Of a DNA stretch of 64,000 bases, positions 9,929-56,455 are shown piece by piece; positions within the stretch are counted from its first letter, which is position 1, and every line of letters begins with the position of its first letter. The notes below the pieces were generated by a model. It did no database searches. It saw nothing but the letters and a program-made list of their open reading frames with translations, and was not told the DNA's origin. Where the stretch lies: positions 1 through 64,000 of the forward strand of contig ONJY01000008.1 in the NCBI GenBank assembly GCA_900318275.1, given 5' to 3'. Origin of the DNA: an uncultured Bacteroidales bacterium. GTDB taxonomy: Bacteria > Bacteroidota > Bacteroidia > Bacteroidales > P3. A program made the translations under genes and the position numbers.

Positions 9929-10106
9929 TATCCGATACGACAGTTCTTCAGTACTTCAACGATACTTTTTCAGTAGTTCTTCAGTTAAACACTGAAATAC
10001 TACTGAAGAACTGCCGTACCGGCTCCGTAGGGGAGCCGGTGGAGTTTTGAGTTTTGAGTTATGATTTATTTTTTATGGGGTCTTGTAGCCGTTTAGTAGC
10101 CGTTTA
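9929..10106. repeat. 11-bp periodic repeat array upstream of topA
   Basis: Ten consecutive 11-bp units run from 9929 to 10038, and two identical units (GTAGCCGTTTA) follow at 10085-10095 and 10096-10106. Early units end in TTCTTCA or TTCAACG, later ones in CACTG, TACTG, CTCCG, so the array turns to the complementary motif in its second half. The 13-mers 9941-9953 and 10001-10013 are exact inverted repeats. This fills most of the 402-bp gap between the divergent nadE and topA genes. Confidence 0.8.
10042..10069. repeat. 7-bp periodic repeat (GAGTTTT type)
   Basis: Four heptads, GAGTTTT twice then GAGTTAT and GATTTAT, in the nadE-topA gap between two 11-bp repeat blocks. Same style as other heptad runs in the window. 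Confidence 0.7.
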
Positions 10107-10219
10107 GGTGGGGTTTTGAAAAAAAAAAAAAAAATTTATGCCGGCATACAATAAATTAAATATATATACGTTTTAGCATCAGAATAATCCTCATAATACG
10201 GACAAAAACAACCCGATAT
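10107..10219. other. AT-rich topA leader with A16 tract
   Basis: The rest of the nadE-topA gap. It holds a run of sixteen A at 10119-10134 and a TACGTTTT sequence at 10167-10174 that is one base from the Bacteroidota -7 consensus, but no convincing TTTG element sits 19-21 bp upstream. It is probably the topA promoter region; the exact promoter is not resolved. Confidence 0.35.
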
Positions 10220-12544
10220 ATGAAAAATCTTGTTATTGTTGAGTCGCCTGCCAAGGCGAAAACCATCGAGAAATTCCTGGGCAAGGACTACACGGTGAAG
10301 TCGAGTTACGGCCACATCCGCGACCTGGCCAAGAAGGAGATGAGCATTGACGTAGATGACAACTACGAGCCGCAGTACCAGATTAGCGACGACAAGAAGT
10401 CGCTGGTGAGCGAGCTGAAGAAAGCCGTGAAGGAGGCCGACAAGGTGTGGCTGGCGTCCGATGAGGACCGCGAGGGAGAGGCCATAGCCTGGCACCTTCA
10501 GGAGACGCTGAAGCTCGACCCGAAGACTACGCAGCGCATAGTGTTCAACGAGATTACCAAGACGGCAATCCTGCACGCCATCGAGAACCCGCGCCAGATA
10601 GACATGAACCTCGTCGATGCGCAGCAGGCCCGCCGAGTGCTGGACCGCCTGGTGGGCTACGAGATAAGCCCCATACTGTGGAGCAAGATCAAGCCTGCGC
10701 TGAGCGCCGGCCGCGTGCAGAGTGTGGCGGTGCGCCTGATAGTGGAGCGCGAGGAGGAGATCAAGAACTTCGTCAGCAAGCCTTACTTCCGCGTGACGGC
10801 GGTGTTCCACCCGCTGGAGAGCGGCAAGACCCTCAACGCGGAGCTGAGCCGCCACTACGATACCGCCGATGAGGCCGAGGCCTTCCTGCACAGCATCGTG
10901 GGTTCAAACTTCAAGATTAGCAAGATTGAGACCAAGCCTGCCCGCCGCACGCCGGCGCCGCCGTTCACCACCAGCACCCTGCAGCAGGAGGCCAGCCGCA
11001 AGCTGGGCTTCAGCGTGGCACGCACCATGCAGGTGGCGCAGCAGCTGTACGAGAGCGGATATATCACCTACATGCGTACCGATAGCGTGAACCTCAGCGA
11101 GCTGGCCCTTGGCATGGCCAAGAAGGAGATCGAGAGCCAGTACGGCCCCGAATATGTCAAGACCCGCCGCTACCAGACCAAGACCAAAGGTGCCCAGGAG
11201 GCCCACGAGGCCATACGCCCCACCAACCTGGAGGCACAGACCATCAACACCGAGAGCGCCCAGCGCCGCCTCTACGAGCTTATCTGGAAGCGTACCGTCG
11301 CCAGCCAGATGGCCGACGCCGAGATGGAGAAGACAGAGATTGAAATCACCATAAGCAACTCCAGCCTCACCTTCGGCTGCACCGGCGAGCAGGTGAAGTT
11401 CGACGGCTTCCTGAAGGTGTATATGGAGAGCACCGACGACGAGAACGACAGCCAGACACAGTCGCTGCTGCCCAAGCTGCCCGAAGGCACTCTGCTGACT
11501 ATGGAATGCTGCGAGGCCGCCGAGCACTACACGCAGCACCCGTCGCGCTACACCGAGGCAAGCCTCGTCAAGAAACTCGAGGACCTCGGCATCGGCCGCC
11601 CGTCGACCTACGCGCCGACCATCAGCACCATCCTCAAGCGCGAGTACATCATCAAGGAAGACCGCGAGCCCGAGGCTCACCAGTGCACGGTGCTGACGTT
11701 GAAGGACAACAATGTGAAGAAGGCCACACGCACCGAGAAGGGCTATGCCGACAAGGGCAAGCTCTTCCCCACCGACATCGGATGCGTGGTCAACAACTTC
11801 CTGATGGACCACTTCAACAACATCATGGACTACAACTTCACGGCAACCGTTGAGAAGGACTTCGACGACATTGCCGACGGCAAGAAGGAATGGCGCAAGG
11901 TGATTGACAAGTTCTACGTGCCCTTCCACAAGAACATACGCCAAACGCAGCAGAATAGCCAGCGCAACACCGGCAGCCGCCTGCTGGGCGTGGACCCCGC
12001 CAGCGGCAAGAACGTGTACGCCAAGATAGGCCGCTACGGCACCTTGGTGCAGATTGGCGAGACCAACAGCGACGAGAAGCCGCGCTTCGCCAGCATGAAG
12101 AAGGGGCAGAGCATAGAGACCATCACCCTCGAAGACGCCCTCGGGCTCTTCTCGCTGCCGCGCAGCCTCGGCCAGTTCGAGGACAAGGACGTGACGGTTA
12201 GCATAGGCAAATTCGGCCCCTACGTGCGCCACAACGGCAAGTTCTACTCGCTGGGCAAGAACGACGACCCGTATGAGGTGAGCTTGGAACGCTCGATAGA
12301 GATCATCAAGTCGAAGCGCAAAGCCGAGGAGGAGAAAGAGGAGCTGAAGAAGGTGTACCCGCACGAAATAGGCGTGAAAGACGGTGACGCTGTGGTGAGC
12401 AACATAGGCCGCTTCGGGCCGTACCTGACCTATCGTGGGGAGAACTTCCGTCTGACCAAGGGCGTCGACCCGCTGACGCTGACGCTCGACAAGGCCATGG
12501 AGATAATCGAAGGCTCACTCAAGAAGAAGAGCAAGAAGAAGTAA
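10220..12544 (+). CDS. topA: DNA topoisomerase I
   Basis: 774 residues. Type IA topoisomerase that relaxes negative supercoils. The Toprim domain starts at the N-terminus (VIVESPAKAKTI) and contains DEDREGEAIAWHL near residue 80. The active-site Tyr is residue 284 in YITYMRTDS. The C-terminus has topoisomerase repeat domains without obvious Cys4 zinc ribbons and ends in a Lys-rich tail, as usual in Bacteroidota. The glycosyltransferase GTG start directly follows the TAA. Confidence 0.97.
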   Translation: MKNLVIVESPAKAKTIEKFLGKDYTVKSSYGHIRDLAKKEMSIDVDDNYEPQYQISDDKKSLVSELKKAVKEADKVWLASDEDREGEAIAWHLQETLKLDPKTTQRIVFNEITKTAILHAIENPRQIDMNLVDAQQARRVLDRLVGYEISPILWSKIKPALSAGRVQSVAVRLIVEREEEIKNFVSKPYFRVTAVFHPLESGKTLNAELSRHYDTADEAEAFLHSIVGSNFKISKIETKPARRTPAPPFTTSTLQQEASRKLGFSVARTMQVAQQLYESGYITYMRTDSVNLSELALGMAKKEIESQYGPEYVKTRRYQTKTKGAQEAHEAIRPTNLEAQTINTESAQRRLYELIWKRTVASQMADAEMEKTEIEITISNSSLTFGCTGEQVKFDGFLKVYMESTDDENDSQTQSLLPKLPEGTLLTMECCEAAEHYTQHPSRYTEASLVKKLEDLGIGRPSTYAPTISTILKREYIIKEDREPEAHQCTVLTLKDNNVKKATRTEKGYADKGKLFPTDIGCVVNNFLMDHFNNIMDYNFTATVEKDFDDIADGKKEWRKVIDKFYVPFHKNIRQTQQNSQRNTGSRLLGVDPASGKNVYAKIGRYGTLVQIGETNSDEKPRFASMKKGQSIETITLEDALGLFSLPRSLGQFEDKDVTVSIGKFGPYVRHNGKFYSLGKNDDPYEVSLERSIEIIKSKRKAEEEKEELKKVYPHEIGVKDGDAVVSNIGRFGPYLTYRGENFRLTKGVDPLTLTLDKAMEIIEGSLKKKSKKK

Positions 12545-15559: not shown

Positions 15560-17633
15560 CGACATAGTATACCTAAAAGGCGTAGGCCCCTCTAAAGCCA
15601 AAGTGCTGGCAGCGGAACTCGGCATACATACATGCGGCGACCTGCTGCAATACTTCCCTTTCCGACATATAGACCGCTCGCAGCAGAGCACAATAGCGTC
15701 GCTGACCGACGAGAACCAGTACGTGGTGCTGCGCGGCACGGTGAGCAACATGCAGACCGTGAGCACTGGCAAATACCGCGAGCGCCTCACCGTAGACTTC
15801 AGCGACGGCACAGGCACGCTGCAGCTTGTGTGGTTCCAGGGCACCAAATGGGTGCGTGGCAAGCTCAAGCCCGGTGTACGCTACAACATCATGGGCAAGC
15901 CATCAGTCTTCAACGGGCAATGGCAGATGACGCACCCCGAACTGGAAGCGGAGAGTGGAGAGCAGAGAGTGGAGAGTGGTAAGTTCCTACCAGTCTACCC
16001 CACCACCGAGAAGATGAAGCACAGCGGCCTCGGCACACGCGCCATGGCACGCCTCACCGAGACCCTCGTCAACTCCCTCGGCGGCATCGACGAGACTCTG
16101 CCGCAAGGCATCATAGAGCGCTACCGTCTCCCCGGCCGACGCGAAGCCCTCATAGCCATACATTACCCCGACAGCCAGCAGCAGCTCGAGGCGGCACGCA
16201 CACGCCTCAAGTTCGAGGAGCTCTTCTTCATGCAGCTCGACTACCAGTGGGCCCACAGCGAGCGCCAGCAGCACTCCGCCGGGCGTGTCTTCAGCGCCGT
16301 AGGCGACCATTTCAACCGCTTCTACAGCGAGAAGATACCCTTCCCCCTCACAGGTGCCCAGAAGCGCGTCATACGCGAGATACGCGAGGATATGCGCTCA
16401 GGCCACCAGATGAACCGCCTCCTCCAAGGCGATGTAGGCAGCGGAAAGACCCTCGTGGCATTGATGTGCATGCTGCTGGCCATCGACAACGGCTCGCAGG
16501 CATGCCTCATGGCACCCACCGAGATACTGGCCACCCAACACTACAACACCTTCCTGCGCATGCTCGAAGGAATAGGCATCGGCGTAGATCTGCTTATTGG
16601 CAGCGTGCGCCCGGCCGACAAGAAGAAGATAAAAGCCCGCATCGCCAGCGGCGAGACGCACATCGTCATAGGCACCCATGCCCTCATCGAAGACGACGTC
16701 ACCTTCCGCGACCTCGGCCTCGTGGTCATCGACGAGCAGCACCGCTTCGGCGTGGAGCAGCGCAGCAAGCTCTGGGCCAAAGCCACTCCCCCGCCCCACG
16801 TGCTGGTGATGACCGCCACCCCCATACCGCGCACCCTGGCCATGACCGTCTACGGCGACCTCGACTGCTCGGTCATCGACGAGCTGCCCCCGGGACGCCA
16901 CCCCGTGCGCACCTACCACCGCACCGAACCGCGCCGCCCCTTGGTATTCAGCTTCCTGAAGAAGCAGATAGACGCCGGACGACAGGTCTACGTCGTCTAC
17001 CCTCTCATACACGAGAGCGAGAAGCTCGACCTCAAAGACCTCATCGACGGACTGGAGATGGTGCAAAGCTACTTCCCGCGGCCACAATACCACGTCTCCA
17101 TGCTCCACGGCGGCCTCAGCGCCGAGGAGAAGGCCTTCGAGATGCAGCGCTTCAAGGAAGGCAAGACACATATCATGGTGGCCACCACGGTGATAGAGGT
17201 GGGCGTCGACGTGCCCAACGCCACGGTGATGGTCATCGAGAACGCCGAGCACTTCGGCCTCTCGCAGCTCCACCAGCTCCGCGGCCGCGTGGGGCGCGGG
17301 GCAGAGCAGAGCTACTGCATACTCATGACCAAGGACCAGCTCAGCTACTCGTCGCAGGAACGCATACGCACCATGTGCAGCACCACCGACGGCTTCCAGA
17401 TTGCCGAGGCCGACCTGCGGCTGCGCGGCCCTGGCGACATGCAGGGTCTGCAGCAGAGCGGCGTCCTCGACCTCAAGATTGCCTCCATCGTCGACGACGA
17501 GCCCCTCGTGGCCGCCGCACGCAACGAGGTGCGCGACATCCTCAGCGCCGACCCCACCCTCGCAGCATACCCCATGCTGCAGGACTACATACGCCACTCG
17601 AAGAACAAACAGCTATGGAGCAAGATCAGTTAA
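15546..17633 (+). CDS. recG: ATP-dependent DNA helicase RecG
   Basis: 695 residues. Branch-migration helicase for stalled forks and recombination intermediates. Wedge domain at the N-terminus (KGVGPSKAKVL), Walker A GDVGSGKT near residue 298, DEQH box near 394, and the helicase C domain with QLRGRVGRG. A run of 7-bp repeats inside the gene (15943-15979) encodes EAESGEQRVESG around residues 133-145, just before the conserved LPVYP segment; the frame is kept. It overlaps coaD at its start and the GNAT gene at its end. Confidence 0.96.
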   Translation: MLPSDDIVYLKGVGPSKAKVLAAELGIHTCGDLLQYFPFRHIDRSQQSTIASLTDENQYVVLRGTVSNMQTVSTGKYRERLTVDFSDGTGTLQLVWFQGTKWVRGKLKPGVRYNIMGKPSVFNGQWQMTHPELEAESGEQRVESGKFLPVYPTTEKMKHSGLGTRAMARLTETLVNSLGGIDETLPQGIIERYRLPGRREALIAIHYPDSQQQLEAARTRLKFEELFFMQLDYQWAHSERQQHSAGRVFSAVGDHFNRFYSEKIPFPLTGAQKRVIREIREDMRSGHQMNRLLQGDVGSGKTLVALMCMLLAIDNGSQACLMAPTEILATQHYNTFLRMLEGIGIGVDLLIGSVRPADKKKIKARIASGETHIVIGTHALIEDDVTFRDLGLVVIDEQHRFGVEQRSKLWAKATPPPHVLVMTATPIPRTLAMTVYGDLDCSVIDELPPGRHPVRTYHRTEPRRPLVFSFLKKQIDAGRQVYVVYPLIHESEKLDLKDLIDGLEMVQSYFPRPQYHVSMLHGGLSAEEKAFEMQRFKEGKTHIMVATTVIEVGVDVPNATVMVIENAEHFGLSQLHQLRGRVGRGAEQSYCILMTKDQLSYSSQERIRTMCSTTDGFQIAEADLRLRGPGDMQGLQQSGVLDLKIASIVDDEPLVAAARNEVRDILSADPTLAAYPMLQDYIRHSKNKQLWSKIS
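15943..15979 (+). repeat. 7-bp periodic repeat inside recG (GGAGAGT type)
   Basis: Five heptads: TGGAAGC, GGAGAGT, GGAGAGC, AGAGAGT, GGAGAGT. They encode a Glu/Ser/Gly-rich loop in the RecG wedge region. The complement of this word type is seen in dnaG. Confidence 0.8.
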
Positions 17634-18061
17634 GAGTTAAGAGTGATGATTTAAGAGTTAACCTGGTGGCAGAGGAGGGTGCGTCGCTGTCGAGCGGCAG
17701 CCTGCGGCTGTATGCAAAAGCTGTGGTCAGTGGCCAGTGCGTTGGGGAGGGAGAAATCACCATCGTCGGCGCCGTGGAACTCTATAGCTACGACCCTGTC
17801 AACCGCCGCGCGGCAGTGGGCATCATGGTGGCCAACGAATACCGCCGCCAGGGCTACGCTCTCGCCATGCTCCATGCCCTCAAGGAACTATCCGCTACCA
17901 ACAACCAACTGCACACCCTCTACGCCGACATCGCGGCCACCAACACCGCCTCCCTCGCCCTCTTCCGCAAGGCCGGCTACACACAGTGCGGCCATTTCAA
18001 GGAATGGCTCGAGTATGACAGCCACTTTGTCGACACCATACGCATGCAACTGATACTATGA
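17615..18061 (+). CDS. GNAT acetyltransferase, N-terminally truncated
   Basis: 148 residues from ATG 17615, which lies inside the end of recG. The C-terminal 95 residues match RimJ/RimL-type N-acetyltransferases (AVELYSYDPVNRRAAVGI, then the acetyl-CoA loop YRRQGYA, and LFRKAGY). About 60 residues normally found before this are absent; in their place lies sequence made largely of 7-bp repeats (17628-17662 and 17723-17743). Substrate unknown. It is either a decayed gene or a shortened domain. TGA overlaps the mltG ATG. Confidence 0.65.
   Translation: MEQDQLRVKSDDLRVNLVAEEGASLSSGSLRLYAKAVVSGQCVGEGEITIVGAVELYSYDPVNRRAAVGIMVANEYRRQGYALAMLHALKELSATNNQLHTLYADIAATNTASLALFRKAGYTQCGHFKEWLEYDSHFVDTIRMQLIL
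17628..17662 (+). repeat. 7-bp periodic repeat (AGTTAAG type) at recG/GNAT junction
   Basis: Five heptads: AGTTAAG twice, AGTGATG, ATTTAAG, AGTTAAC. The run includes the recG stop codon and the N-terminal codons of the truncated GNAT gene. Confidence 0.8.
17723..17743 (+). repeat. 7-bp periodic repeat (GTGGTCA type) inside the GNAT gene
   Basis: Three heptads, GTGGTCA, GTGGCCA, GTGCGTT, encoding VVSGQCVG at the point where conserved GNAT sequence begins. Confidence 0.6.
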
Positions 18062-19005: not shown

Positions 19006-19104
19006 CGGAACGTATTCCCTTCGGCCCACGTACGAACTCTCTACGGCCTCGACGGCCTTCCACTGAAGAACGGCCGAAGGGGGGCCGTAGGGGCTCCGTA
19101 GGGG
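19006..19104. repeat. 11-bp periodic repeat array downstream of mltG
   Basis: Nine 11-bp units. The last three real repeats are GGCCGAAGGGG, GGCCGTAGGGG and CTCCGTAGGGG (19072-19104). The unit at 19017-19027 (CCCTTCGGCCC) and that at 19039-19049 (CTCTACGGCCT) are near reverse complements of the first two, so the array is roughly symmetric and could form hairpins. Confidence 0.8.
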
Positions 19105-21729: not shown

Positions 21730-21734
21730 GTGGG

Positions 21735-21762
21735 AGTTAAGAGTTAATAGTTAAGAGTTTTT
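21735..21762 (+). repeat. 7-bp periodic repeat (AGTTAAG type) before asd
   Basis: Four heptads: AGTTAAG, AGTTAAT, AGTTAAG, AGTTTTT. They fill the gap between the surface protein and asd and end 3 bp before its ATG. Confidence 0.75.
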
Positions 21763-34430: not shown

Positions 34431-34433
34431 CTG

Positions 34434-34464: not shown

Positions 34465-34567
34465 ATATTTTCTCTAAAAGGCATTTCAAACCTTTCATCT
34501 TGTGAAAAATGACACGAAAACAGCCAAAAATAAATCGTTATCACACAGCCTTTTACCGCATCATCTC

Positions 34568-34622
34568 TTATATTGGTCTTTAGTTGCTCTTTAGTTTGTC
34601 ATTAGTTAAATTTACTATGGTA
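34568..34622. repeat. 11-bp periodic repeat upstream of the DUF6266 gene
   Basis: Five units: TTATATTGGTC, TTTAGTTGCTC, TTTAGTTTGTC, ATTAGTTAAAT, TTACTATGGTA. AT-rich and less regular than the other 11-bp arrays, but the same period. It lies in the divergent gap between the leader/lipoprotein promoter and the DUF6266 gene. The rest of 34465-34696 is AT-rich with no other feature that I can see. Confidence 0.55.
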
Positions 34623-40511: not shown

Positions 40512-41348
40512 ATGAAAATCTGTGTTATTGGAACCGGCACGATGGCCAAAGGCATTGTCAAGGCTTTTGCCACCAAGATGCCCGTCGTCATGAAGAGCCG
40601 CACGCAGGCCAGCCTCGACAAGGCCATGGCCTCGATAGCCAAAGGCTATGGCAAACTGGTTGAGAAAGGCAAGATGACCCAGGAGGCCGTCGACGCCCTG
40701 CTCAAGAACATCGTCACAACCACCGACTACGCCACCTTCGCCGACGCCGACCTCGTCATCGAGGCCGCCGTGGAGGAGATGCAGCTCAAGAAAGACGTCT
40801 TCACCGAGCTTGACGGTATCTGCAAACCCGAGACTATCTTCGCCACCAATAGCTCGAGCCTGAGCATCACCGAGATTGCCGCCTGCACCAAGCGTCCGAC
40901 CCAGTTCATCGGCATGCACTTCTTCAACCCCGCCGACCGCATGGCTCTGGTTGAGGTTATCCGCGGCCAGCTCACCAGCGACGAGGTCTGCAAGTGCGTC
41001 ATCGACCTCGCCACCGAGATTGGCAAACAGCCCGTCGAGGTGAAGGAAGCCCCCGGCTTTGTTGTGAACCGAATCCTCATACCTATGATCAACGAAGCTG
41101 TCGGCATCCTGGCCGATGGTATCGCCAGCGCCGAGGACATCGACAAGTGCATGATGCTCGGTGCCAACCACCCCATGGGCCCGCTGGCCCTGGCTGACCT
41201 CATCGGCAACGATGTGAACCTGGCCATCATGGAGGTGCTATACAAGGAGTTCGGCGACCCGAAGTACCGTCCTCACCCCCTGCTCCGCAAAATGGTACGC
41301 GCCGGTCTCCTCGGCCGCAAGACCGGCGAGGGCTTCTACAAATATTGA
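40512..41348 (+). CDS. 3-Hydroxybutyryl-CoA dehydrogenase
   Basis: 278 residues. NAD(P)-dependent interconversion of acetoacetyl-CoA and 3-hydroxybutyryl-CoA. N-terminal Rossmann motif [11 protein letters not shown] (GxGxM), catalytic His in [21 protein letters not shown], and the C-terminal domain [14 protein letters not shown] ending [10 protein letters not shown]. Full length. It is second in the crotonase operon and is followed by a strong hairpin terminator. Confidence 0.94.
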
Positions 41349-41370
41349 TGCCCTGCCGCATAGAAAGAAG

Positions 41371-41405
41371 AAGGTCCCGTCCGATGGGCGGGACTTTCTT
41401 TTTTT
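41371..41405. terminator. Bidirectional intrinsic terminator
   Basis: Stem 41374-41382 with 41386-41394 (8 of 9 pairs, GTCCCGTCC), three-base loop, followed by a T-rich run on the plus strand and a pyrimidine-rich run on the minus strand. It serves the dehydrogenase and the convergent miaA. Confidence 0.85.
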
Positions 41406-42233
41406 CTACTGGTAACGCTTGAGCCAGGTGAGCTGCTTGCGGGCGTAGTGCCAGGTGTTGAGCTTGATCTGAGCCACAGCCTCGTCAAGTGAGCCGTGTC
41501 CGTCTATTACGGGGAAGAGTTCTCGGTAGCCAACGGTGTTGAGGGTATTGAGGTGGCGGTAAGGGAGCAGCGAGCGCACCTCGTCGACGAGGCCGTCGGC
41601 CATCATCTGGTCAACACGTCGGTCTATGCGTTCGCGCAAGGCAGCAGGCTCCATCGACAGCACCTGCATCTCTATGGCGAAGGGGCGCGGTGCCGCCTGC
41701 TGGCCAGCAATCACCTCGCTGTAAGGGCGGCCGGCGGTGAGGCAAACCTCGAGTGCACGCTGTAGCCTGACGGGGTTGCGGAGGTCAACACGGGCGTAGT
41801 AGTCGGGGTCGAGCAACCGCAGCTGTGCACGCTTCTCTTCAAGGGGCATCTGCTGCAGGCGGGCACGCAACTCGTCGGAGGGCGACGGCAGCACCGCCGG
41901 TGTAGCTCGGAGGGCGTCAATGTACAGGCCGCTGCCGCCGACTGCGACCACGGTGTCGTGCGTCTCCATCAGGCGTGCAATCACGACCATGGCGTCATGC
42001 TCATAGTCATAGATGTTGTACGGCTCTGTGACCGACCGACAGGCGATGAAGTGGTGTGGGACGGCGGCGAGATCCTCGTCCGAGGGACGTGCCACGCCGA
42101 TGCGCAGTTCACGGTAGAACTGGCGTGAGTCGCAGGAGACTATTTCCGTACCCAGACGTCGCGCCAACGCGACGGCATGGGCCGTCTTGCCGACAGCGGT
42201 CGGACCTGCCACCACGATGAGCTTCTTAGGCAT
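41406..42233 (-). CDS. miaA: tRNA dimethylallyltransferase
   Basis: 275 residues. Adds the dimethylallyl group to A37 of tRNAs reading UNN codons. Walker A GPTAVGKT at residues 9-16, SCDSRQFY and GGSGLYIDAL follow. The start overlaps the aroA stop by 8 bp, so it is the last gene of the dnaG operon. Confidence 0.94.
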   Translation of the reverse strand: MPKKLIVVAGPTAVGKTAHAVALARRLGTEIVSCDSRQFYRELRIGVARPSDEDLAAVPHHFIACRSVTEPYNIYDYEHDAMVVIARLMETHDTVVAVGGSGLYIDALRATPAVLPSPSDELRARLQQMPLEEKRAQLRLLDPDYYARVDLRNPVRLQRALEVCLTAGRPYSEVIAGQQAAPRPFAIEMQVLSMEPAALRERIDRRVDQMMADGLVDEVRSLLPYRHLNTLNTVGYRELFPVIDGHGSLDEAVAQIKLNTWHYARKQLTWLKRYQ

Positions 42234-44690: not shown

Positions 44691-46700
44691 TCAGTCGAGC
44701 CGCCTGGCAATCACCATGCCGAGGGCCTGGCCCAACTGGCGTAATATCTCTGAGTAGTACTTAATCTCGTTCAAAAGTTCCCCTTGCTCCTCCTCCGAGG
44801 CACCTATGAGCCTCTCGCGTTTCTCGGCAATCATCTGCGCCAGACGCAAGCTCTTGAAGGTATTGAGGCTGTCGCCGACATCCTGCAGCAGGGCATCCTC
44901 TATCCTGGGGGGATAGATGCCTTTCTTGCGCCACGAGTCCTCGCAGAGCGAATAGGTGTCCATCATCACGGTGGCGCAGAAGGTGCGTAGCGCATCGTCG
45001 TTGGAGTCGATAAAGCGCGTCGTATCCACCTTGCCCACCATCTCCACCATCAACGTGCATTGCTCCAACACACGCTGGCACAACGGGTGCGAGAACGACA
45101 GCTGTTCGTTCTTTATCTCGTTGACGATAATCTGCGCTACGGTATACGTCGTCGTCTGTTCCGTACCGTCCTCGGCCTTCAGCGTCTGGCTGACGGTCTC
45201 GTTGCCGTAGTTCAGCAACAGCTGCACCAAGTGGCGCTCCACCTCGGATGGCGGGGCGTTGAGCTGCGTGTTGTGAGCTATGGGTTGAGGCTCATGTTGC
45301 TGCTGTTGCACTTCACCCTGTTCTCCACTCTCCACTCTCTGATCTCCACTCTCCGCTCTCCGCTCAGCACTCTCCTCTGCGGCTTTCTGTCTTGCCGACC
45401 CTATGGCGCGGGCGACAGCGGTACTCAGCACATCCTCGCTCACGCGCAGCAGGTGCGAGCATTGGCGTATGTATTCGCTGCGCTCCAGCATGTCGGTCAC
45501 AAGGGCTATGCTGCGTGCCGTCTCGCTGACGAGTTCGGCCTTGCGTATGGGGTCCTCCTTCACGTCGTCGAGCAGCACACGCGTCTTGTACATGATGAAG
45601 TTGTCCTCGTGCGAGGCCAGAAACTCCTGCAGCTGCGTGCTGCCGTACTTCTGCGCATAGCTGTCGGGGTCTTCGCCGTCGGGGAAGAGCACAAGCCTCA
45701 CATGCATGCCTTCGGCGAAGAGCAGGTCGATGGCCCTGAGGGCGGCCTTGATGCCCGCCTTGTCGCCGTCGTAGAGCACGGTAACATTTGACGTGTAGCG
45801 TTTTATGAGCCTTATCTGTTCGGTCGTCAGGCTGGTGCCGCAACTGGCAACGGTGTTCTCCACACCGCTCTGATGCATCGATATGACGTCCACATTGCCC
45901 TCCACCAGATAGCACTTGTCGGCCTTTGCTATGGCGGCGCGTGCCTGGAAGAGGCCGTAGAGGATGCGGCTCTTGTTGTAGATGTCCGAGTCGGGCGAAT
46001 TGACGTATTTCGCCGCCTGTTTCTCGGTGGTGAGCACGCGGCCGCTGAAGCCAAGCACACGTCCGCTGATGCTGTAGATGGGGAACATCACGCGGCCGCG
46101 GAAGCGGTCATACTGCTTGCCGGTATCCTCCTTGACGATGGTGAGGCCCGTCTTCTCCAGCACCTGAAGGCTGTAGCCGTTCTTCAGCGCATGGTCGGTG
46201 AAGTTGCTCCACTCGTCGAGGCAGAAGCCCAAGCCGAAGCGTTTTATCACTTCGTCGCTGAGGCCGCGCCCGTGGAAATAACTGAGGCCTACGGCGCGCC
46301 CCATCTCGTCGTTGTAGAGCAGGTCGGCGAAGTACTTCTGCGCAAACTCACTCACGTGGAACAGGCCGTCACGCTCCGTCTGCCGCTGCTTCTCCTCCTC
46401 GGTCTGCTCTTCCTCCTTAATCTCTATGTGGTACTTGTCGGCCAGCCACCGCAGCGCCTCGGGATAGGTATAGTGCTCGTGCTTCATGAGGAACTTCACC
46501 ACATCGCCCGCCTCGCCGCAGCCGAAGCACTTGAAGATGCCCTTCGACGGCGACACATAGAACGACGGCGTCTTCTCGTTGTGGAAAGGGCAGCAGCCTA
46601 TGTGGTTGGCGCCACGCTTCTTGAGAGACACGAAATCGCCTATCACCTCCTCGATGCGGGCGGCGTCCATGATGCGCTGTATGGTCTCCTGATCTATCAT
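44691..46700 (-). CDS. dnaG: DNA primase
   Basis: 669 residues. Makes RNA primers for replication. N-terminal CHC2 zinc finger (CPFHNEKTPSF and CFGCGEAGD), Toprim with VEGNVDVISMHQSG and LYDGDKAG, then the helicase-binding C-terminus. A stretch around residues 440-475 (ESAERRAESGDQRVESGEQ) is encoded by eight 7-bp repeats and lies in the linker to the C-terminal domain. First gene of the dnaG-activator-aroA-miaA operon, with a consensus promoter 9 bp upstream. Confidence 0.96.
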   Translation of the reverse strand: MIDQETIQRIMDAARIEEVIGDFVSLKKRGANHIGCCPFHNEKTPSFYVSPSKGIFKCFGCGEAGDVVKFLMKHEHYTYPEALRWLADKYHIEIKEEEQTEEEKQRQTERDGLFHVSEFAQKYFADLLYNDEMGRAVGLSYFHGRGLSDEVIKRFGLGFCLDEWSNFTDHALKNGYSLQVLEKTGLTIVKEDTGKQYDRFRGRVMFPIYSISGRVLGFSGRVLTTEKQAAKYVNSPDSDIYNKSRILYGLFQARAAIAKADKCYLVEGNVDVISMHQSGVENTVASCGTSLTTEQIRLIKRYTSNVTVLYDGDKAGIKAALRAIDLLFAEGMHVRLVLFPDGEDPDSYAQKYGSTQLQEFLASHEDNFIMYKTRVLLDDVKEDPIRKAELVSETARSIALVTDMLERSEYIRQCSHLLRVSEDVLSTAVARAIGSARQKAAEESAERRAESGDQRVESGEQGEVQQQQHEPQPIAHNTQLNAPPSEVERHLVQLLLNYGNETVSQTLKAEDGTEQTTTYTVAQIIVNEIKNEQLSFSHPLCQRVLEQCTLMVEMVGKVDTTRFIDSNDDALRTFCATVMMDTYSLCEDSWRKKGIYPPRIEDALLQDVGDSLNTFKSLRLAQMIAEKRERLIGASEEEQGELLNEIKYYSEILRQLGQALGMVIARRLD
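45324..45379 (-). repeat. 7-bp periodic repeat inside dnaG (CTCCACT type)
   Basis: Eight heptads on the plus strand: CTCCACT twice, CTCTGAT, CTCCACT, CTCCGCT twice, CAGCACT, CTCCTCT. The complementary word AGTGGAG is the one found in recG. Encodes a Glu/Ser/Arg-rich linker. Confidence 0.85.
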
Positions 46701-46750: not shown

Positions 46751-48112
46751 TCACTTGATGACAAACTCATACACCGAGTCGCGGTCGACCCCCTTGTAGA
46801 CGGGCAGCAGCTTGATGTGCGTACCGCGCTGCAGGTTCACCGGACCTATATAGACGGCGCTCTCGCGTGTCGGCGCCGTACCGTCGGTGGTGTAGAAGAT
46901 ATAGGTGTTTGGCACCTCGGTGGCTATCTCGATGTTCATCGTCGTCTCGTCGACCCTCCTGGCGGCGAAGAGCGGGGTGAACGAGCCCTCGCAGTAGTTG
47001 TAGCCGCGAGCGGCCAGACGGTCTTTCTGCACCTCCACCTTGCGGCGGAAGTGGCCCCAGTCGCGCCCGTCGGCGGGCGACCACAGCACCTCGGCCAACG
47101 CCAGCATGCGCGGCAGCAGCATGTACTCGGCTCCGCGGGCGTCGCTCTCGGCCTTCGCCGTGTAGCAGCCGCAGGCACCTACAATCATCTCGGCCAGCCG
47201 GGCCGTAGTGCCCTCGGGCACAGGCTCGAAGCCATAGACACGCGACAGCGTCACCACCCCCGCGTCGGCCTTGGGCTGGTAGCGGGCGTCGGCCTGGTAG
47301 CGGTTGAAGGAGCAGTATTCGGCCGGCGACATCACCACGTCGCAGCCCTCGCGGGCACGCTCCAAGCCCTCGTAGAAACCATTGGTGCAGAACACCGTGT
47401 CTGTCTCCACGTCCCATCCGCACGAATCCATCACCTCGACGACAACGTTCTGCGACGCCGCATACTCCACCATCCCTGCCACATCCTCGGTGTCGGCGTC
47501 GGCAGGCAGGCGCAGGCGCAGACGGTTGAGCTTGTAGAGCGACATAGCGTCGACCATGCGGCGCATGAACTTCATGCCCAGCACGCCGCAGCTGTCGTCC
47601 ACAGCCACACCGCGCCAGCCGAAGCGCGGATAATCCAATATGGTGCACTCCGGCAGCGACACAGCGGCGTATGCCGTCCTCGTAACGTCGGCGGGCAGCA
47701 GCTGCAGCAGCGTCTGGCAGCCGTAGAGCAGGCCCGCCGCGCTGTTGGCCGAGAGGCGTATGCCGCCGCTGCGCACCTCCAGCAGGTAGCCCTCGTCGCC
47801 GAGCTCGGTGTTCAGCGTGTCGTTGAGCACCAGCTCCACATCGCTGTCCTGCGAGGCCGACACCAGCGACGGCCTGAAGTGCGCGCTGCGCAAAGCCTTC
47901 ATCACATACTTCAGCGTCGGCGAGTTCTGCCCGATGCCCGTAACACTCATCTTAAGGCTTGAGTGCAGCGTGTAGGACCCTTCCTTCTGCACCATGAACA
48001 CCGGCTCGGGCACCACGCTGAGCTCTGTCACCGTAGCGCTGCGTCCGCATGCCGCAGCAAGCAGCAGCACCAGCGCGGCGACCGCCATCAGGGATATTCT
48101 GTTTCTCTTCAT
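46751..48112 (-). CDS. GH20 beta-hexosaminidase-like lipoprotein lacking the catalytic site
   Basis: 453 residues; lipoprotein signal peptide with Cys22. It has the GH20 N-terminal domain, DYPRFGWRGVAVD, SLYKLNRLRLRL, then GCDVVMSPAEYCSFNRYQ, VYGFEPVP, YMLLPRMLALAEVLWSP, and a C-terminal chitobiase-type domain (FYTTDGTAPT). The barrel section between about residues 200 and 255 is far too short: the catalytic D-E pair (HxGGDE) is absent, and the NLWTE substrate segment is CYTAKA. Usual length is 550-770. Probably a pseudoenzyme that could still bind glycan. Confidence 0.8.
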   Translation of the reverse strand: MKRNRISLMAVAALVLLLAAACGRSATVTELSVVPEPVFMVQKEGSYTLHSSLKMSVTGIGQNSPTLKYVMKALRSAHFRPSLVSASQDSDVELVLNDTLNTELGDEGYLLEVRSGGIRLSANSAAGLLYGCQTLLQLLPADVTRTAYAAVSLPECTILDYPRFGWRGVAVDDSCGVLGMKFMRRMVDAMSLYKLNRLRLRLPADADTEDVAGMVEYAASQNVVVEVMDSCGWDVETDTVFCTNGFYEGLERAREGCDVVMSPAEYCSFNRYQADARYQPKADAGVVTLSRVYGFEPVPEGTTARLAEMIVGACGCYTAKAESDARGAEYMLLPRMLALAEVLWSPADGRDWGHFRRKVEVQKDRLAARGYNYCEGSFTPLFAARRVDETTMNIEIATEVPNTYIFYTTDGTAPTRESAVYIGPVNLQRGTHIKLLPVYKGVDRDSVYEFVIK

Positions 48113-48209
48113 TTCTAACCTCTTTTACCCTTATAACGCCACCTCGCCTATTTTATTGTACAATTATTACACCTCTATTACACCTTCCTCAGCAACAATC
48201 GCCGCCCTT

Positions 48210-48363
48210 CCATCGGAATTGGTCCAGTACTTCGACCATCGTTTAACCATCGTTCGACCATCCTTCGACCATATATTATGGTTAAACGATGGTCGAAGGA
48301 TGGTCGAAGGATGGTCGAACGGCCGATGGAAGGACGTGGTAAGGGCGGAGGATGGGCGGAGGA
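48210..48363. repeat. 11-bp periodic repeat array between GH20-like gene and flippase
   Basis: Fourteen successive 11-bp units without a phase slip. Units at 48232, 48243, 48254 and 48265 are variants of TCGACCATCGT; those at 48287, 48298 and 48309 are variants of GGATGGTCGAA, the complement. The turn is a small palindrome (ACCATA, 3 bp, TATGGT) near 48262-48280. It dominates the 312-bp divergent gap 48113-48424; outside it I see only AT-rich sequence and a weak TATGTTTC element at 48413-48420. Confidence 0.9.
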
Positions 48364-48424
48364 GGTAAAAAATGTGTGGCGGGGGACACAATTTTAGCGC
48401 GGAGGCGACGTTATATGTTTCGTT

Positions 48425-50142: not shown

Positions 50143-50177
50143 TGTTGAGTTATGAGTCTTGAGTTATGAGTTTTGAG
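50143..50177 (+). repeat. 7-bp periodic repeat over the start of the radical SAM gene
   Basis: Five heptads: TGTTGAG, TTATGAG, TCTTGAG, TTATGAG, TTTTGAG. The second TTATGAG supplies the ATG at 50166, and the last heptad encodes residues 2-4. Confidence 0.8.
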
Positions 50178-51741: not shown

Positions 51742-53199
51742 ATGACAATCAAAGACCTTGAACCCAAAGAGTTGTGGAGTAACTTTTACTCCCTCACCCG
51801 CCAGCCGCGCCCCTCGAAACACGAGGAGAAAGTGCGTAAGTTCCTTGTGGACTGGGCCAAGAAGAACAAGATTGCCTGCCGCGTCGACGGTGTTGGCAAC
51901 GTCATCCTGAGCAAGCCCGCCACCAAGGGTATGGAGAAAGTGCACCCCGTGGTACTCCAGGCCCACATGGACATGGTGCCCCAGGCACGTGCCGGCAAGA
52001 AACATGACTTTGAGAAAGACCCCATAGAGACCAAGATTGTGGGTGACTGGGTGTATGCCTGCGACACCACGCTTGGTGCCGACGACGGTATGGGCGTGGC
52101 CGCCATCATGGCAGTCTTCGCCAGCAAGACCGTCAAGCACGGCCCGCTGGAGGCCCTCATCACCACCGACGAGGAGACCGGCATGACCGGTGCCTTCGGC
52201 CTAAAGAAAGGCGAGCTGCACGGCGACTACCTGCTGAACCTCGACAGCGAGACCGAGGGCGAGCTCTACGTGGGTTGCGCCGGCGGTATCGACGCTGCCA
52301 TAAACATTCCCTACAAGACAGAGAAGGCCCCGAAGGGCATGGTGGCCTACCGTCTCACCATCGGCGGCCTGAAGGGCGGCCATAGCGGCATGGAAATCAA
52401 CACCGGCCGCGCAAACGCCAACAAGCTGCTCTTCCGCCACCTGCGCTGGGTTGCCGAGTGCGGCATACGCCTCATCAGCATCGAAGGCGGCAACATGCGT
52501 AACGCTATCCCGCGCGACGCCGAAGCCGTCATTGCCATGCCCAAAGAGCACGAGGAGTGCATTCTCAAGGAGTTCGACAAGGTTGCTGGCTGGGTGAAGA
52601 AGGAACTCGCCAACGTTGAGCCCGACTTCTGCATGAAGTACGAGAAGGTACGCATGAACCCCACAGTCATTGACAACGAAGGCACACAGAAGATTATCAA
52701 CCTCATGATGGTGGCCCCGAACGGCGTTATCCGCATGAGCAAGGACATGGAAGGCTTGGTGGAGACCTCGCTGAACCTGGCTATCGCCAAAACCACAGCG
52801 GCCAAGAAGTTTGTCGTCTACGCCCTGTTGCGCTCCTCGGTCGACACCGCCAAGGAAGCCCTTGCCGAGCGCCTCGTCTGCCTGGCCGAACTGGCAGGTG
52901 GCAAATGCCAGCTCAGCGGCGCCTACCCCGGCTGGAAGCCCAACATGCAGAGCCAGTTGTTGAAGACTATGAAGGCCACCTATAAGAAGCTCTACAAGAA
53001 AGAGCCCGCCGTCATGGCCATCCACGCTGGCCTCGAGTGCGGCCTGCTCGGCGGCAAATATCCCGACATGGAGATGATCTCCTTCGGCCCGACATTGCAG
53101 AGCCCCCACAGCCCCGACGAGCGCTGCTACATACCGAGCGCCAAGAAGTTCTATGAATACCTGCTGGCAGTCCTGGCAGCAATCCCCGTGAAGAAATAA
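51742..53199 (+). CDS. pepD: Aminoacyl-histidine dipeptidase (M20C)
   Basis: 485 residues from ATG 51742; the promoter position excludes an earlier start. Cytoplasmic metallodipeptidase of broad specificity. Metal ligands are visible in HMDMVPQ, LGADDGMG, TDEETGMTGAFGL and NLDSETEG, with the C-terminal HAGLECGLLGG. Fits a peptide-using organism together with the dipeptidyl peptidase. Followed by a perfect hairpin terminator. Confidence 0.95.
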   Translation: MTIKDLEPKELWSNFYSLTRQPRPSKHEEKVRKFLVDWAKKNKIACRVDGVGNVILSKPATKGMEKVHPVVLQAHMDMVPQARAGKKHDFEKDPIETKIVGDWVYACDTTLGADDGMGVAAIMAVFASKTVKHGPLEALITTDEETGMTGAFGLKKGELHGDYLLNLDSETEGELYVGCAGGIDAAINIPYKTEKAPKGMVAYRLTIGGLKGGHSGMEINTGRANANKLLFRHLRWVAECGIRLISIEGGNMRNAIPRDAEAVIAMPKEHEECILKEFDKVAGWVKKELANVEPDFCMKYEKVRMNPTVIDNEGTQKIINLMMVAPNGVIRMSKDMEGLVETSLNLAIAKTTAAKKFVVYALLRSSVDTAKEALAERLVCLAELAGGKCQLSGAYPGWKPNMQSQLLKTMKATYKKLYKKEPAVMAIHAGLECGLLGGKYPDMEMISFGPTLQSPHSPDERCYIPSAKKFYEYLLAVLAAIPVKK

Positions 53200-53214
53200 G
53201 AGATTATGCCTATA

Positions 53215-53250
53215 AAAGAAGAGCCGGCCAAATGGCCGGCTCTTTTATTT
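53215..53250. terminator. Bidirectional intrinsic terminator
   Basis: Perfect 12-bp stem 53219-53230 with 53233-53244, AA loop, flanked by an A-rich left side and TTTATTT on the right. Serves pepD and the convergent ABC permease gene. Confidence 0.93.
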
Positions 53251-54329
53251 CAGCTGAGACGCACCCGCGGGTCGAGTACGGCGTAAAGGATATCGGTGAG
53301 GATATTGATAAGGACGAGCAAGATACAGATGAAGAGTATGGTGCCCATGACAACGGGAAAGTCATACTTCTCCAACCCATCGACGATAACAACGCCCATG
53401 CCCTTCCAGTCGAAGACATACTCAACGAAGACGGCTCCGGCAAGCAGGCCGGCGAACCAGCCGCTGGCCGAGGTCACCACGGGGTTGAGTGCGTTGCGCA
53501 AGGCATGACGCACCACGACGCGGCGGTGGCTCAATCCCTTTGCGCGGGCGGTGCGTATGTAGTCCTGCGACAGAGCTTCGAGCATGGAGTTCTTGGTGAG
53601 CTGCGTTAGCGTGGCCAACGGACGTATGCCGAGCGTCAGCGCAGGCAGTATGAGATTCTTCAGGTCAAGGTATTCGCCGCAGCCATAATCGTCCACGGAG
53701 TAGAGGTTGCCGAACATGTTGAGGTGCGTCCATCCGGCAAGGACGTAGGCGAAAAGCCACGCAATCAAGATTGCGGCAAAGAACGACGGCAGCGACATGC
53801 CGAGCGTTGAGAGCACGAGCGTAAGGCGGTCCACCCATGTGTCCTTATGCAGAGCCGCCACCACGCCCAAAGTGACGCCGACGACAAGGGCGAAAATCAT
53901 GGCCACAACGGCGAGCAGAGCCGTCTGCGGGAAGGCTGCACCGATAATCTCGCTCACACGGCGCTGGCTCTGGTAGCTGCGCCTAAGGTACGGCGCCTTG
54001 AGCACCACGGAGGTGGAACCCAGCCGCAGCAGCGAGGCGTAGGGGGCGTACTTCTCGTCGGAGAGGTAGAAATAGCTGGTGCTGTCGCTATTGTTGTGTA
54101 CCGATATAGGTACCAGATCGTTCAGATAGTTGAGATACTGCAGTCCCACGGGCTTGTCTCGCCCCAGGTCGCGGTTGATGATGTCGATGCTCTCCTGATC
54201 GGCACGCTGGCCAAGCATCATGCGGGCCGGGTCGCCTGGCAGGATGTTGAAGAGGAAGAACACCAACGTGACCACTCCCAGCAGCACCAGAAGGCCATAC
54301 AGAAGCCGTTTTATGATATACCTACCCAT
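53250..54329 (-). CDS. DppB-type ABC transporter permease
   Basis: 359 residues, six predicted helices. N-terminus YIIKRLLYGLLVLLGVVTLVFFLFNILPGDPA and the EAA loop SQDYIRTARAKGLSHRRVVVRHALRNA are typical of oligopeptide/nickel permeases. A long periplasmic segment (about residues 50-125) makes it larger than most. No partner permease, ATPase or binding protein is adjacent; the gene follows tsaB with a 1-bp overlap. Substrate uncertain, probably peptides. Confidence 0.88.
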   Translation of the reverse strand: MGRYIIKRLLYGLLVLLGVVTLVFFLFNILPGDPARMMLGQRADQESIDIINRDLGRDKPVGLQYLNYLNDLVPISVHNNSDSTSYFYLSDEKYAPYASLLRLGSTSVVLKAPYLRRSYQSQRRVSEIIGAAFPQTALLAVVAMIFALVVGVTLGVVAALHKDTWVDRLTLVLSTLGMSLPSFFAAILIAWLFAYVLAGWTHLNMFGNLYSVDDYGCGEYLDLKNLILPALTLGIRPLATLTQLTKNSMLEALSQDYIRTARAKGLSHRRVVVRHALRNALNPVVTSASGWFAGLLAGAVFVEYVFDWKGMGVVIVDGLEKYDFPVVMGTILFICILLVLINILTDILYAVLDPRVRLS

Positions 54330-55664: not shown

Positions 55665-56273
55665 TCAATGCAGTTTCATGCCTATGATGTTCATGAACTC
55701 CTCGCGGGTCTTGGGGTCTTTCATGAAGGCGCCGGTGAAGTCGGAGGTGGTGGTGACGCTGTTCTGCTTCTGCACACCGCGCATCGACATACACATGTGC
55801 TGCGCCTCGATGACCACGGCCACGCCAAGGGGGTTGAGGGTCTCCTGGATGCAGTCCTTGATCTGCTTGGTGAGGCGCTCCTGCACCTGCAGACGGCGTG
55901 CATAGGCATCGACCACCCGCGGTATCTTGCTCAGACCCACGATGGTACCATTGGGGATATAGGCCACGTGGGCCTTGCCAACGAAGGGCACCATGTGGTG
56001 CTCGCAGAGCGAATAGAGCTCGATGTCCTTGACGACAACCATCTGCTTGTAGTCCTCGTGGAACATCGCCGAACGCAGTATCTCCTTGGGCTCCACGTCG
56101 TAGCCGTTGGTGAAGAAGAGCATGGCCTTGGCTATGCGCTCAGGACTCTTGAGGAGGCCTTCGCGGTCAGGGTCCTCGCCCAGCAGGCGGAGGATGGCCT
56201 TGTAGTGTTTGGCCATCTCGCCGACGCACTGCTCGTCGTACTTGTCTATTTTCTGGTATCCTAATTCTGCCAT
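55665..56273 (-). CDS. folE: GTP cyclohydrolase I
   Basis: 202 residues. First step of folate (or queuosine-type) pterin synthesis. Zinc and active-site residues are in [20 protein letters not shown] and [12 protein letters not shown], with [18 protein letters not shown]. Full length. It probably leads the folE-lolA-tsaB-permease operon. The 233-bp gap upstream is filled mostly by an 11-bp repeat array. Confidence 0.95.
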
Positions 56274-56334
56274 TGTTGTCTTTTAGTATGTCAAGTGGGG
56301 TTATTATTGCGCCAAAAGGCTGATTTTCTGAACT

Positions 56335-56455
56335 CGCTACGCCCTCCCGACGGTATCGGTACCGCCCCTCCACGGCCACTCTATCGCATCTGCGGTATGC
56401 ATGGCCGAAGAAAGGCCGAAGGAAAGCCGAAGGGGGACCGAAGAGGCTGCGACGA
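56335..56455. repeat. 11-bp periodic repeat array between SUMF1 gene and folE
   Basis: Eleven 11-bp units. The right half has ATGGCCGAAGA, AAGGCCGAAGG, AAAGCCGAAGG, GGGACCGAAGA (56401-56444); the left half has pyrimidine-rich forms such as CTCCACGGCCA. Same core (GGCCGAAGG) as in the array behind mltG. Confidence 0.82.

Follow-up and report, generated by a model that had tools for sequence, protein, structure and literature searches.

The window analysed here, by which we mean the whole stretch of 64,000 nt (positions 1-64,000 of the forward strand of contig ONJY01000008.1, GCA_900318275.1), comes from an uncultured Bacteroidales bacterium (P3), whose assembly (G000, the own genome below) is 88.6% complete. 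Five of its intergenic regions carry arrays of short repeated units (Table 1). The array at 19006 occupies a same-strand gap between a YceG-like gene and a gene for a CHU_C (type IX secretion signal) protein; that at 48210 lies in the divergent gap between a GH20 gene and a polysaccharide-synthesis gene, with the period of its core extending into the flanks (48210-48363); and that at 56335 is found between two minus-strand genes, an FGE-sulfatase-like gene and the gene for GTP cyclohydrolase I. The short array at 34556 is a separate sub-family. It is almost identical in the congener G022, and its leader was found at 4 places among the loci searched. For the composite array at 9929, the orthologous gap of G022 was also aligned.

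Table 1. Arrays and promoter-like motifs in the window
Feature	Position	Strand	Description
Composite array	9929..10107	.	Divergent gap NAD synthase / topA
Inner part	~9943-10017		Inverted core, TTCTTCAGTA-type units
Outer part	reaching ~10038		CCGTAGGGG-type units
Further part	10042-10064		7-bp GAGTTTT repeat
End part	10085-10107		Two GTAGCCGTTTA units
Weakly inverted array	19006..19104	.	CCTTCGGCC / GGCCGTAGGGG-type 11-bp units
Short direct array	34556..34622	.	~3 units TCTTTAGTTGN, preceded by leader CCGCATCATCTCTTATATTGG
Type array, core palindrome	48229..48322	.	Four 11-bp units per arm, GTTCGACCATC / GTTTAACCATC, 5-nt centre ATATT
Direct array	56335..56455	.	GCCGAAGGNNN units, clear at 56401-56433; inversion not significant
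Promoter-like ACAATA-N15-CGTTA	9843..9868	-	Facing NAD synthase gene
Promoter-like ACAATA-N15-CGTTA	10148..10173	+	1 mismatch; facing topA
Promoter-like ACAATA-N15-CGTTA	48134..48159	-	Facing GH20 gene
Promoter-like ACAATA-N15-CGTTA	48388..48413	+	1 mismatch; facing polysaccharide-synthesis gene

A previous sequence-only reading had claimed an 11-bp period at all five sites. Compared with 1000 dinucleotide shuffles per site, the lag-11 score was significant at each of them (p≤0.001), with values of 22/33 (9929), 26/33 (19006), 18/22 (34568), 29/33 (48210), and 26/33 (56335). Within 9929-10106, the 7-bp repeat outscores lag 11 in the same stretch (25/33 at lag 7). A genome-wide lag-11 scan, set beforehand as the refuting test, showed that the signal survives and is not confined to the window. 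In a 463-kb sample of the own genome, lag 11 was the strongest gap period (27 of 157 gaps) and lag 7 was the second periodic class, with lags 10, 12, and 13 nearly empty (2, 2, and 0 gaps, respectively); the density of arrays in this sample was ~1 per 19 kb. The 48205-48345 array alone matched 19 other places in the own genome at E≤0.01. Arrays also recurred across the genus containing Candidatus Colimorpha, in 13 of the 16 congener genomes sampled by stretches, and none was seen in 60 loci outside the genus. G051 had no array in this 16-genome sampling, though other gaps gave array-like scores, and none was seen in the little sequence covered for G063 and G020.

As had been claimed, the repeated words differ between sites. 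Nevertheless, the sequence is not free, as had also been suggested: seven distinct words share the consensus nGTTCtnCnnT, and one 11-bp step is common to the different words found across congeners. Such a fixed step and frame would be expected if the arrays were binding sites under selection, with a predicted protein (a regulator, nucleoid or partition protein) contacting one 11-bp unit per helical turn and the sites following as its specificity shifts between species. We consider this possible, if on balance unlikely. The own genome holds several words, and different words can coexist even within one array, which argues against this reading; furthermore, no reader protein was found.

DNA uptake sequences are likewise short species-specific words (dialects), often present as inverted pairs between genes. 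Unlike these, the arrays are tandem rather than single, and word A, TTCGACCAT, is nearly restricted to them, with 75 occurrences in arrays, 6 in other spacers, and 2 in coding sequence (3.1 for shuffled words). Words E and F were not clean: word E is commoner in coding sequence than shuffled words (12 versus 2.3, sd 3.3), and so is the 8-mer CCTTCGGC (122 versus 26.3, sd 22.8). Word A speaks against an uptake sequence, words E and F less clearly so.

The sequence-only reading had placed a midway switch to the complementary motif at four of the five sites. Using 200 shuffles per site, we found it at three: strongly at 9929 and 48210 (p≤0.005 for both) and weakly at 19006 (p≤0.02), but not at 34568 (p = 0.67) or 56335 (p = 0.92). 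Many arrays are ~97 bp long, with two arms, each made of three to four 11-bp units, around a short centre that is often 5 nt. Among 133 arrays, 62 were palindromic at a score of at least 28/45 and the remaining 71 were not; at 150 random places, the 95% level was 24 and the maximum 35. The axis was odd in 41 of the 62 palindromes with no spacer imposed, which is consistent with sites for a binding protein. The arrays of G009 and G013, which are direct (palindromic in 0/9 and 0/6, respectively), speak against that reading.

Opposite units of the arms matched better than non-opposite units in G022 (9.36 versus 7.49 of 11), G011 (10.75 versus 9.42), and G044 (9.86 versus 9.35). This is what one would see if the arrays were a mutational by-product, grown by replication slippage in 11-bp steps with hairpin-templated copying of the arms and having neither function nor mobility. 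Direct, minisatellite-like 11-bp runs in G009 (L173:15077-15252, ~15 units) and G013 fit this idea, as do the 7-bp arrays with varied words, which point to fixed-step tandem growth in the order. However, opposite units in the own set match no better than others (8.54 versus 8.67), the neighbouring lags 10, 12, and 13 are nearly empty, and local slippage cannot account for one word recurring with its layout at unlinked places, making this reading quite unlikely. Covariation of a hairpin was rejected on the same own-set values. Swaps of arms between copies gave p values of 0.03 in the own genome, 0.14 in G022, 0.28 in G044, and 1.0 in G011.

Near-identical copies, counted by aligned piece, number 3/4 in G011 (97-100% identity), 5/6 in G022 (96-100%), 7 in G044 (89-100%), and 9 in G064 (88-100%), and in each of these genomes their outer flanks differ. 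For 78 of 125 arrays, the nearest neighbour lies in the same genome, compared with a shuffled mean of 17 and maximum of 30. At four focal gaps, mean similarity was 23.5/33 within genomes (n=16), 19.2 between orthologous gaps across genomes (n=100), and 19.0 between unrelated pairs (n=262); thus, orthologous gaps across genomes resemble one another, on average, no more than unrelated gaps do. Of the 16 within-genome pairs, 7 (29-32) account for the excess. The other 9 score 15-22 and include all six own pairs, so homogenisation at these four gaps does not extend to the own genome. Between close relatives, the word can switch in the same gap, with GTTCGACCATC in the own genome and GTTCTTCAGTA in G022 surrounded by the same promoter motifs. 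Because near-identical copies are present at unrelated loci of one genome and another word is present in the next species, a copying process, which the sequence-only reading had offered as one possibility, is indicated.

Taking these results together, we propose, with a probability of about 0.5, that each array is one copy of a short extragenic repeat, non-coding and dispersed, whose building blocks are 11-bp units and which is copied or converted within each genome in a REPIN-like manner. New versions of the word would arise through mutation and would spread in the genome by transposition- or gene-conversion-like copying, with units exchanged in register; the mosaic arrays seen at L004, L005, L238, and L240, whose parts meet at shared GAAC-type letters, would be the intermediates. 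The step of 11 bp, about one turn of DNA, might be kept by recognition or by in-register exchange and, together with nGTTCtnCnnT, would be explained most simply if a copying or binding protein reads one unit per turn. Arrays would be lost through deletion. At L008:6073-6292, comparison with G022 indicates a probable deletion of the array that left a remnant of an outer unit; the own species lacks the array, and promoter-like motifs on both sides remain (by eye). Such a loss argues against selected binding sites, and their concerted change at many loci would require a copying step anyway.

The five window gaps had been described as three divergent and two same-strand. The same-strand assignment held for 19006 and 56335 and the divergent one for 9929 and 48210; the third divergent gap, at 34568, is uncertain since it hinges on ORF 33002-34279, which has a TTG start and no Pfam match, was not called by the gene caller, and lies in a stretch missing from the closest relative. 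Arrays were present in 22/42 divergent versus 14/122 other gaps of the own genome, a contrast inflated by the choice of own-genome stretches for their arrays, and in 34/75 versus 43/203 gaps of congeners. A first own sample, whose contigs had appeared as matches in the search with the 48205-48345 array, gave 12/30 versus 13/127. Within divergent gaps, the arrays lie midway between the two starts, with the centre at least 122 bp from the start codon in 24/24 cases.

This position would suit a binding site, and a functional site under selection would likewise be found in one gap class across many species, a counterpoint to the copied repeat. In a bolder and rather unlikely reading, each genome of the genus would be dotted with arrays that sit between divergent promoters and act like centromeres or insulators; a putative reader, touching a single 11-bp unit at each turn, would co-evolve with the word while conversion rewrites the arrays. 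If the arrays are copied repeats, their build-up upstream of both promoters could mean either that a copy there is harmless or that an array there is useful.

The same position bears on whether the arrays act as transcribed RNA hairpins, that is, terminators, attenuators or processing sites. The hairpin predicted for 48229..48322 as single-strand DNA is strong (-33.2 kcal/mol, z -8.0, DNA parameters), and the 19006 array begins 13 bp past a stop codon. Nevertheless, the preference for divergent gaps, the location between promoter-like motifs where both were found (as for the 48210 array), the lack of any Rfam match above the gathering score in the window, and the lack of any terminator-like site (GC-rich hairpin plus U-tract) at the five window arrays make an RNA role very unlikely. 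Ordinary terminators had been ascribed to two convergent gaps. Of the convergent gaps, which include shorter junctions near 4796 and 25082, two longer ones were scanned: 53150-53300 contained a terminator-like hairpin (53219-53244) and 41300-41460 contained none. The promoter-like motif itself is specific in its spacing, with 23 matches at spacing 15 versus 1-5 at each spacing of 11-14 and 16-19. A special promoter class was rejected, as the motif is not commoner beside arrays (5/12 divergent gaps with arrays and 7/18 without).

Conservation of position gene by gene appeared at first to hold. Arrays were present in 32/59 congener gaps orthologous to own array gaps versus 2/52 for own non-array gaps (G022 excluded), or 21/42 versus 2/51 with one row per genome; further gaps picked to extend the ortholog test contributed little, with 0 syntenic congeners for the L013 gene, 2 for the L002 gene, and 2 for the L019 gene. 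Within gap type, this conservation was gone for divergent gaps, where having an array in one species makes an array in the ortholog no more likely than overall occupancy would (0.72 versus 0.71), so a tie to particular genes is not supported there. It was kept only for same-strand gaps, whose orthologs share arrays above chance (0.34 versus 0.08), as selected binding sites would. Of 1214 genes, 1 is flanked by arrays on both sides, giving no candidate mobilising gene.

Spacing had also been put forward as the selected trait. Across three families, represented by 27 full-length loci, we counted 0 indels against ~278 substitutions, a count that omits two more divergent loci with one deletion each, compared with 15 indel events per 505 substitutions in non-array gaps of the two closest genomes. 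Although the absence of indels in the 27 loci favours binding sites, the two omitted loci and the 6 indel events per 328 substitutions in whole array-bearing gaps make the result suggestive only; judged from these alignments, array spacing may be constrained.

We then consider what might move the repeat. A true REPIN/BIME population mobilised by a RAYT (Y1) transposase would account for intergenic, inverted, hairpin-forming, lineage-specific sequences in many copies, and a Y1 match (PF01797) was present in 18/24 congeners, including G022. Yet Y1_Tnp had no match in G000, G006, G008, G013, G015, G016, or G018, of which G008, G013, G015, and G018 bear arrays; moreover, the arrays consist of 11-bp units rather than two REPs, and no constant GTAG or CGTC end tag was noticed by eye in the aligned copies. 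With no match in the own assembly (88.6% complete), RAYT/Y1 origin was rejected for the own genome and is most improbable overall. Copying by reverse transcriptase was likewise rejected, with PF00078 not found in the own assembly or in array-bearing G001, G002, G014, and G015, and one match each in G009, G011, and G013. A MITE of a DDE transposon would show target-site duplications and defined terminal inverted repeats; inspection by eye of 14 aligned family-A rows and of five genome families revealed neither, nor any sharp ends. Carriage by plasmids or phages was rejected as well: the 48225-48325 array (own word) had no match there, nor did a second word. One IMG/VR contig has two neighbouring units (20/33 at lag 11, under the array threshold).

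In eukaryotes, the satellite library hypothesis holds that a set of words is common to related species and that each genome amplifies and homogenises a different one of them. The arrays resemble satellites in this shared stock and differ in having only about eight units and in being dispersed among many gaps along a bacterial chromosome. Plasmid centromeres (parC) are bound by ParR and, in plasmid R1, made of 11-bp repeats; the arrays have in common with them the tandem units of one helical turn and the group-specific sequences but are chromosomal, present at many loci, and often inverted.

Among bacterial dispersed repeats, REPINs or REP-BIMEs, as described in two reports (PMC3116915, PMC3733652), are also small intergenic inverted repeats with predicted hairpins, many copies, and lineage-specific populations within genomes, and CGTC-tagged repeats are reported from Bacteroidetes (PMC3733652). 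The arrays differ in that each arm is a run of three to four 11-bp units, in the lack of a RAYT/Y1 match in the own genome, and in their concentration between divergent promoters, whereas REP doublets are said to be spread at random through extragenic space (Bertels and Rainey 2011, PMC3116915). In the open-access literature as far as available, with subscription papers and preprints lying outside it, we found no report of comparable 11-bp arrays. Nearest in Bacteroidales is PINSR, a non-coding intergenic repeat of one clade with 177 and 184 copies in two strains, three-quarters of its positions common to both, and one 188-bp clade consensus; it is without terminal inverted repeats or known transposase and is absent from other clades (PMC4755523). 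It resembles the arrays in being a non-coding intergenic Bacteroidales repeat with many copies. Its description mentions neither an 11-bp unit nor a palindrome, and neither a preference for divergent gaps nor a word that is specific to each species; by this description PINSR would differ from the arrays, its letters being given in a figure only (PMC4755523).

The arrays offer a bacterial example of a dispersed repeat with species-specific turnover, in which the step is fixed while the letters change. How a repeat is copied in a genome where no transposase or reverse transcriptase is recognised, and why such repeats occupy the space between divergent promoters, are testable questions, and a co-evolving reader, if true, would make the arrays a bacterial counterpart of rapidly evolving satellites. 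Their turnover can be traced in the many species of this genus that have been sequenced. The genus comprises gut and rumen bacteria, and the spelling of the word varies from species to species.

The 11-bp period that the sequence-only reading had reported at five intergenic sites of the window was present at every one of them when compared with dinucleotide shuffles (p ≤ 0.001 each). In the same comparison, the inversion midway, which had been claimed for four sites, reached significance at 9929 and 48210 and was weak at 19006, with none at 34568 or 56335. A terminator scan returned no terminator-like sites at any of the five arrays. The short array at 34556-34622 falls in a sub-family, together with L014:15811, L163:5128 and L165:12168 at other sampled loci, in which a direct array lies behind the constant leader CCGYATCATCTCTTATATTG. 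Adjoining it is a stretch of ~1.6 kb (32951-34545) that the closest relative, G022, lacks at the syntenic position; it contains a 425-aa ORF (33002-34279, minus strand) with no Pfam match.

Periodic arrays in the window, with the genes flanking the 11-bp arrays
Step	Position	Flanking genes
11 bp	9929	NAD synthase / topA
11 bp	19006	YceG-like / CHU_C protein
11 bp	34568	ORF without family / DUF6266 gene
11 bp	48210	GH20 / polysaccharide-synthesis gene
11 bp	56335	FGE-sulfatase-like / GTP cyclohydrolase I
7 bp	10042-10064	
7 bp	17628-17661	
7 bp	21734-21759	
7 bp	30209-30241	
7 bp	32334-32385	
7 bp	45318-45375	
7 bp	50145-50177	

Against the window's own assembly (2.28 Mb, 56 contigs, 88.6% complete), the array at 48205-48345 matched 53 pieces at E ≤ 10 and, with strands merged, 20 places at E ≤ 0.01, itself included. 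The proposal of a genome-wide family held in a 463-kb sample made up of the window and 20 stretches, in which a simple gene caller left 157 gaps of 60 bp or more. Lag 11 was the strongest period there: 27 gaps reached 27 of 44 matches, compared with 14 at lag 7, 13 at lag 22, 8 at lag 14, 6 at lag 21, and at most 4 at each other lag from 5 to 60. At 24/33, 25 of the 157 gaps pass, or ~1 array per 19 kb, a density that may be overestimated because the stretches came from contigs already matched by the array query. One contig, C52, begins within an array of family A (L241:1-47), and assembly breaks may therefore hide further copies.

The arrays also occur across the genus, which includes Candidatus Colimorpha merdihippi; for the comparison of loci, the groups were set by TopA identity (≥71% within vs ≤62% outside). 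Genus loci held 14 lag-11 clusters at ≥29/44 in 406 kb (9 of 20 loci), compared with none across 60 outside loci totalling 1.10 Mb; L087 and L092, the loci of named Colimorpha species, had none among the clusters listed at ≥28/44. In stretches from 16 congeners scored at ≥24/33, 13 genomes have lag-11 clusters, with just one or two each in G001, G002, G017 and G024 and none in G051, G063 and G020; control lags 5, 13 and 17 gave zero clusters, and lag 10 gave four, three of them in G002 and the other in G024. The repeated word is GTTCTTCAGTA in G022, TTACGGTAGTA in G011, GTTCTTCGATT in G044, CATGTACGGTG in G064, and both GGTCCGGGGAT and TTATGCTTAGG in G009. The window's genome carries several, including GTTCGACCATC and GTTCTTCAGTA; GTTCGACCATC recurs in a single array of the sampled G022 stretches and in L099, from a species at 72% TopA identity.

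Several words on one 11-bp step had been anticipated, but the sequence is not free, as had been supposed: seven distinct loop-anchored words share the frame nGTTCtnCnnT. These came from 11 genome groups after four were dropped as lying within two mismatches of another, and three of the seven rest on a single array each. In a test that excludes families with other centres, the frame's column information of 11.8 bits exceeded 20,000 random rotations (mean 4.5, maximum 8.9) and letter shuffles (mean 5.8, maximum 9.4). The loci used contain 133 arrays at ≥23/33. Of these, 62 count as palindromic, with a score of at least 28 of 45 pairs (for 150 random places the 95% level is 24 and the maximum 35), and, with no spacer imposed, the best axis lies on a base, giving an odd spacer, in 41 of the 62. 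When a 5-nt centre with four closing pairs is imposed, 40 arrays share one 11-bp register, mostly with 3-4 recognisable units per arm and sometimes another word in the outer units. Mosaic arrays join different words in register, and arrays of the G021 type have a centre shorter than 5 nt. A candidate protein that would read single units is suggested by the step of one helical turn together with the shared frame.

Spacing had been proposed as the selected trait. Profile searches of three families counted 180, 34 and 64 substitutions and no indel in 14, 6 and 7 full-length loci (first-listed row per locus), but the count omits five loci of family A that are partial or divergent (L002, L004, L238, L240 and L241), two of which, L002 and L004, each carry one deletion. 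Between the window's genome and G022, ten non-array gaps differ by 15 indel events per 505 substitutions, and four array-bearing gaps, taken as wholes, by 6 per 328. A constraint on spacing is thus suggested rather than proved, because the loci were chosen for regular phase and some of the substitutions may be older than the copying.

In gaps of at least 100 bp, arrays prefer divergent genes, both in the window's genome (22/42 divergent gaps vs 14/122 others, p = 2e-7, inflated by additional stretches chosen for arrays) and in congeners (34/75 vs 43/203, p = 1e-4; palindromic arrays alone, 15/75 vs 19/203, p = 0.02). Fourteen arrays lie outside called gaps, three of these within a called gene. 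At ≥22/33, none of the window genome's 10 divergent gaps of up to 220 bp has an array, and 24 of 32 longer ones do. Palindromes with a 5-nt centre sit near the middle of 24 divergent gaps (mean smaller-side fraction 0.43 vs 0.31 expected from uniform placement, p = 2e-4), with no centre closer than 122 bp to a start codon; others lie in same-strand gaps (11) and convergent gaps (2). A promoter-like motif, ACAATA-N15-CGTTA, which resembles an ECF-type promoter, occurs at 9843-9868, 10148-10173, 48134-48159 and 48388-48413 of the window and in other gaps, with 23 matches at spacing 15 and 1-5 at neighbouring spacings.

G022 shares synteny with the window, in long blocks of mostly 85-92% identity, and has arrays in all five orthologous gaps. 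Both a word switch and a loss were seen among orthologous gaps, the latter only as a probable event. In the 48089-48424 gap, the word differs between the two genomes and the promoter motifs on both sides are unchanged. At L008:6073-6292, an array is present in 7 of the 15 congeners with synteny; the window's genome has none and probably deleted it, because an apparent outer-unit remnant is retained. This probable loss indicates that an individual copy can be dispensable. The topA gap has an array in 8 of 10 syntenic congeners and the 48089-48424 gap in 6 of 18, seven of the other twelve having gaps of at most 157 bp. Over 413 orthologous gap pairs, 50 have arrays on both sides, compared with 34.4 (sd 3.6, maximum 48) after shuffling within genome and gap type. 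Presence is correlated in same-strand pairs (both 12, one 46, none 276; 0.34 v 0.08). In divergent pairs, which are dominated by a few gaps chosen for following, an array in one species makes one in another no more likely than the high overall frequency predicts (both 38, one 29, none 6; 0.72 v 0.71).

Arrays of one genome resemble each other more than do those of orthologous gaps, whose similarity is at background; in the focal-gap comparison the within-genome excess comes from 7 of 16 pairs and is absent in the six pairs of the window's genome, and 5 of 100 orthologous pairs, from close relatives, score 30-31. Taken together, these results are consistent with a dispersed repeat of extragenic DNA that undergoes copying or conversion inside each genome and is either tolerated or of use between divergent promoters. 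The copying process suggested earlier agrees with the mostly near-identical copies, with different outer flanks, in G011, G022, G044 and G064. Neither a Y1 transposase nor a reverse transcriptase was found in the window's 88.6% complete assembly. No TSD was seen by eye in aligned array copies, and hardly any genes have arrays on both flanks. Of the repeats described from Bacteroidales, PINSR of Prevotella intermedia comes closest: it is likewise intergenic, with ~180 copies and without inverted ends or a known mover.

A second periodic class steps by 7 bp, with words that vary (ACTCATA, TCTCCAC, GAGTTAA and others). Lag 7 also occurs in other Bacteroidales: of the 60 loci from outside the genus, 31 hold such clusters, 69 in all. 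Upstream of the ortholog of the 48425 gene in G009 (L054), an inverted 7-bp-step array, GGTAGCC / GGCTACC, adjoins an 11-bp array in the same gap.
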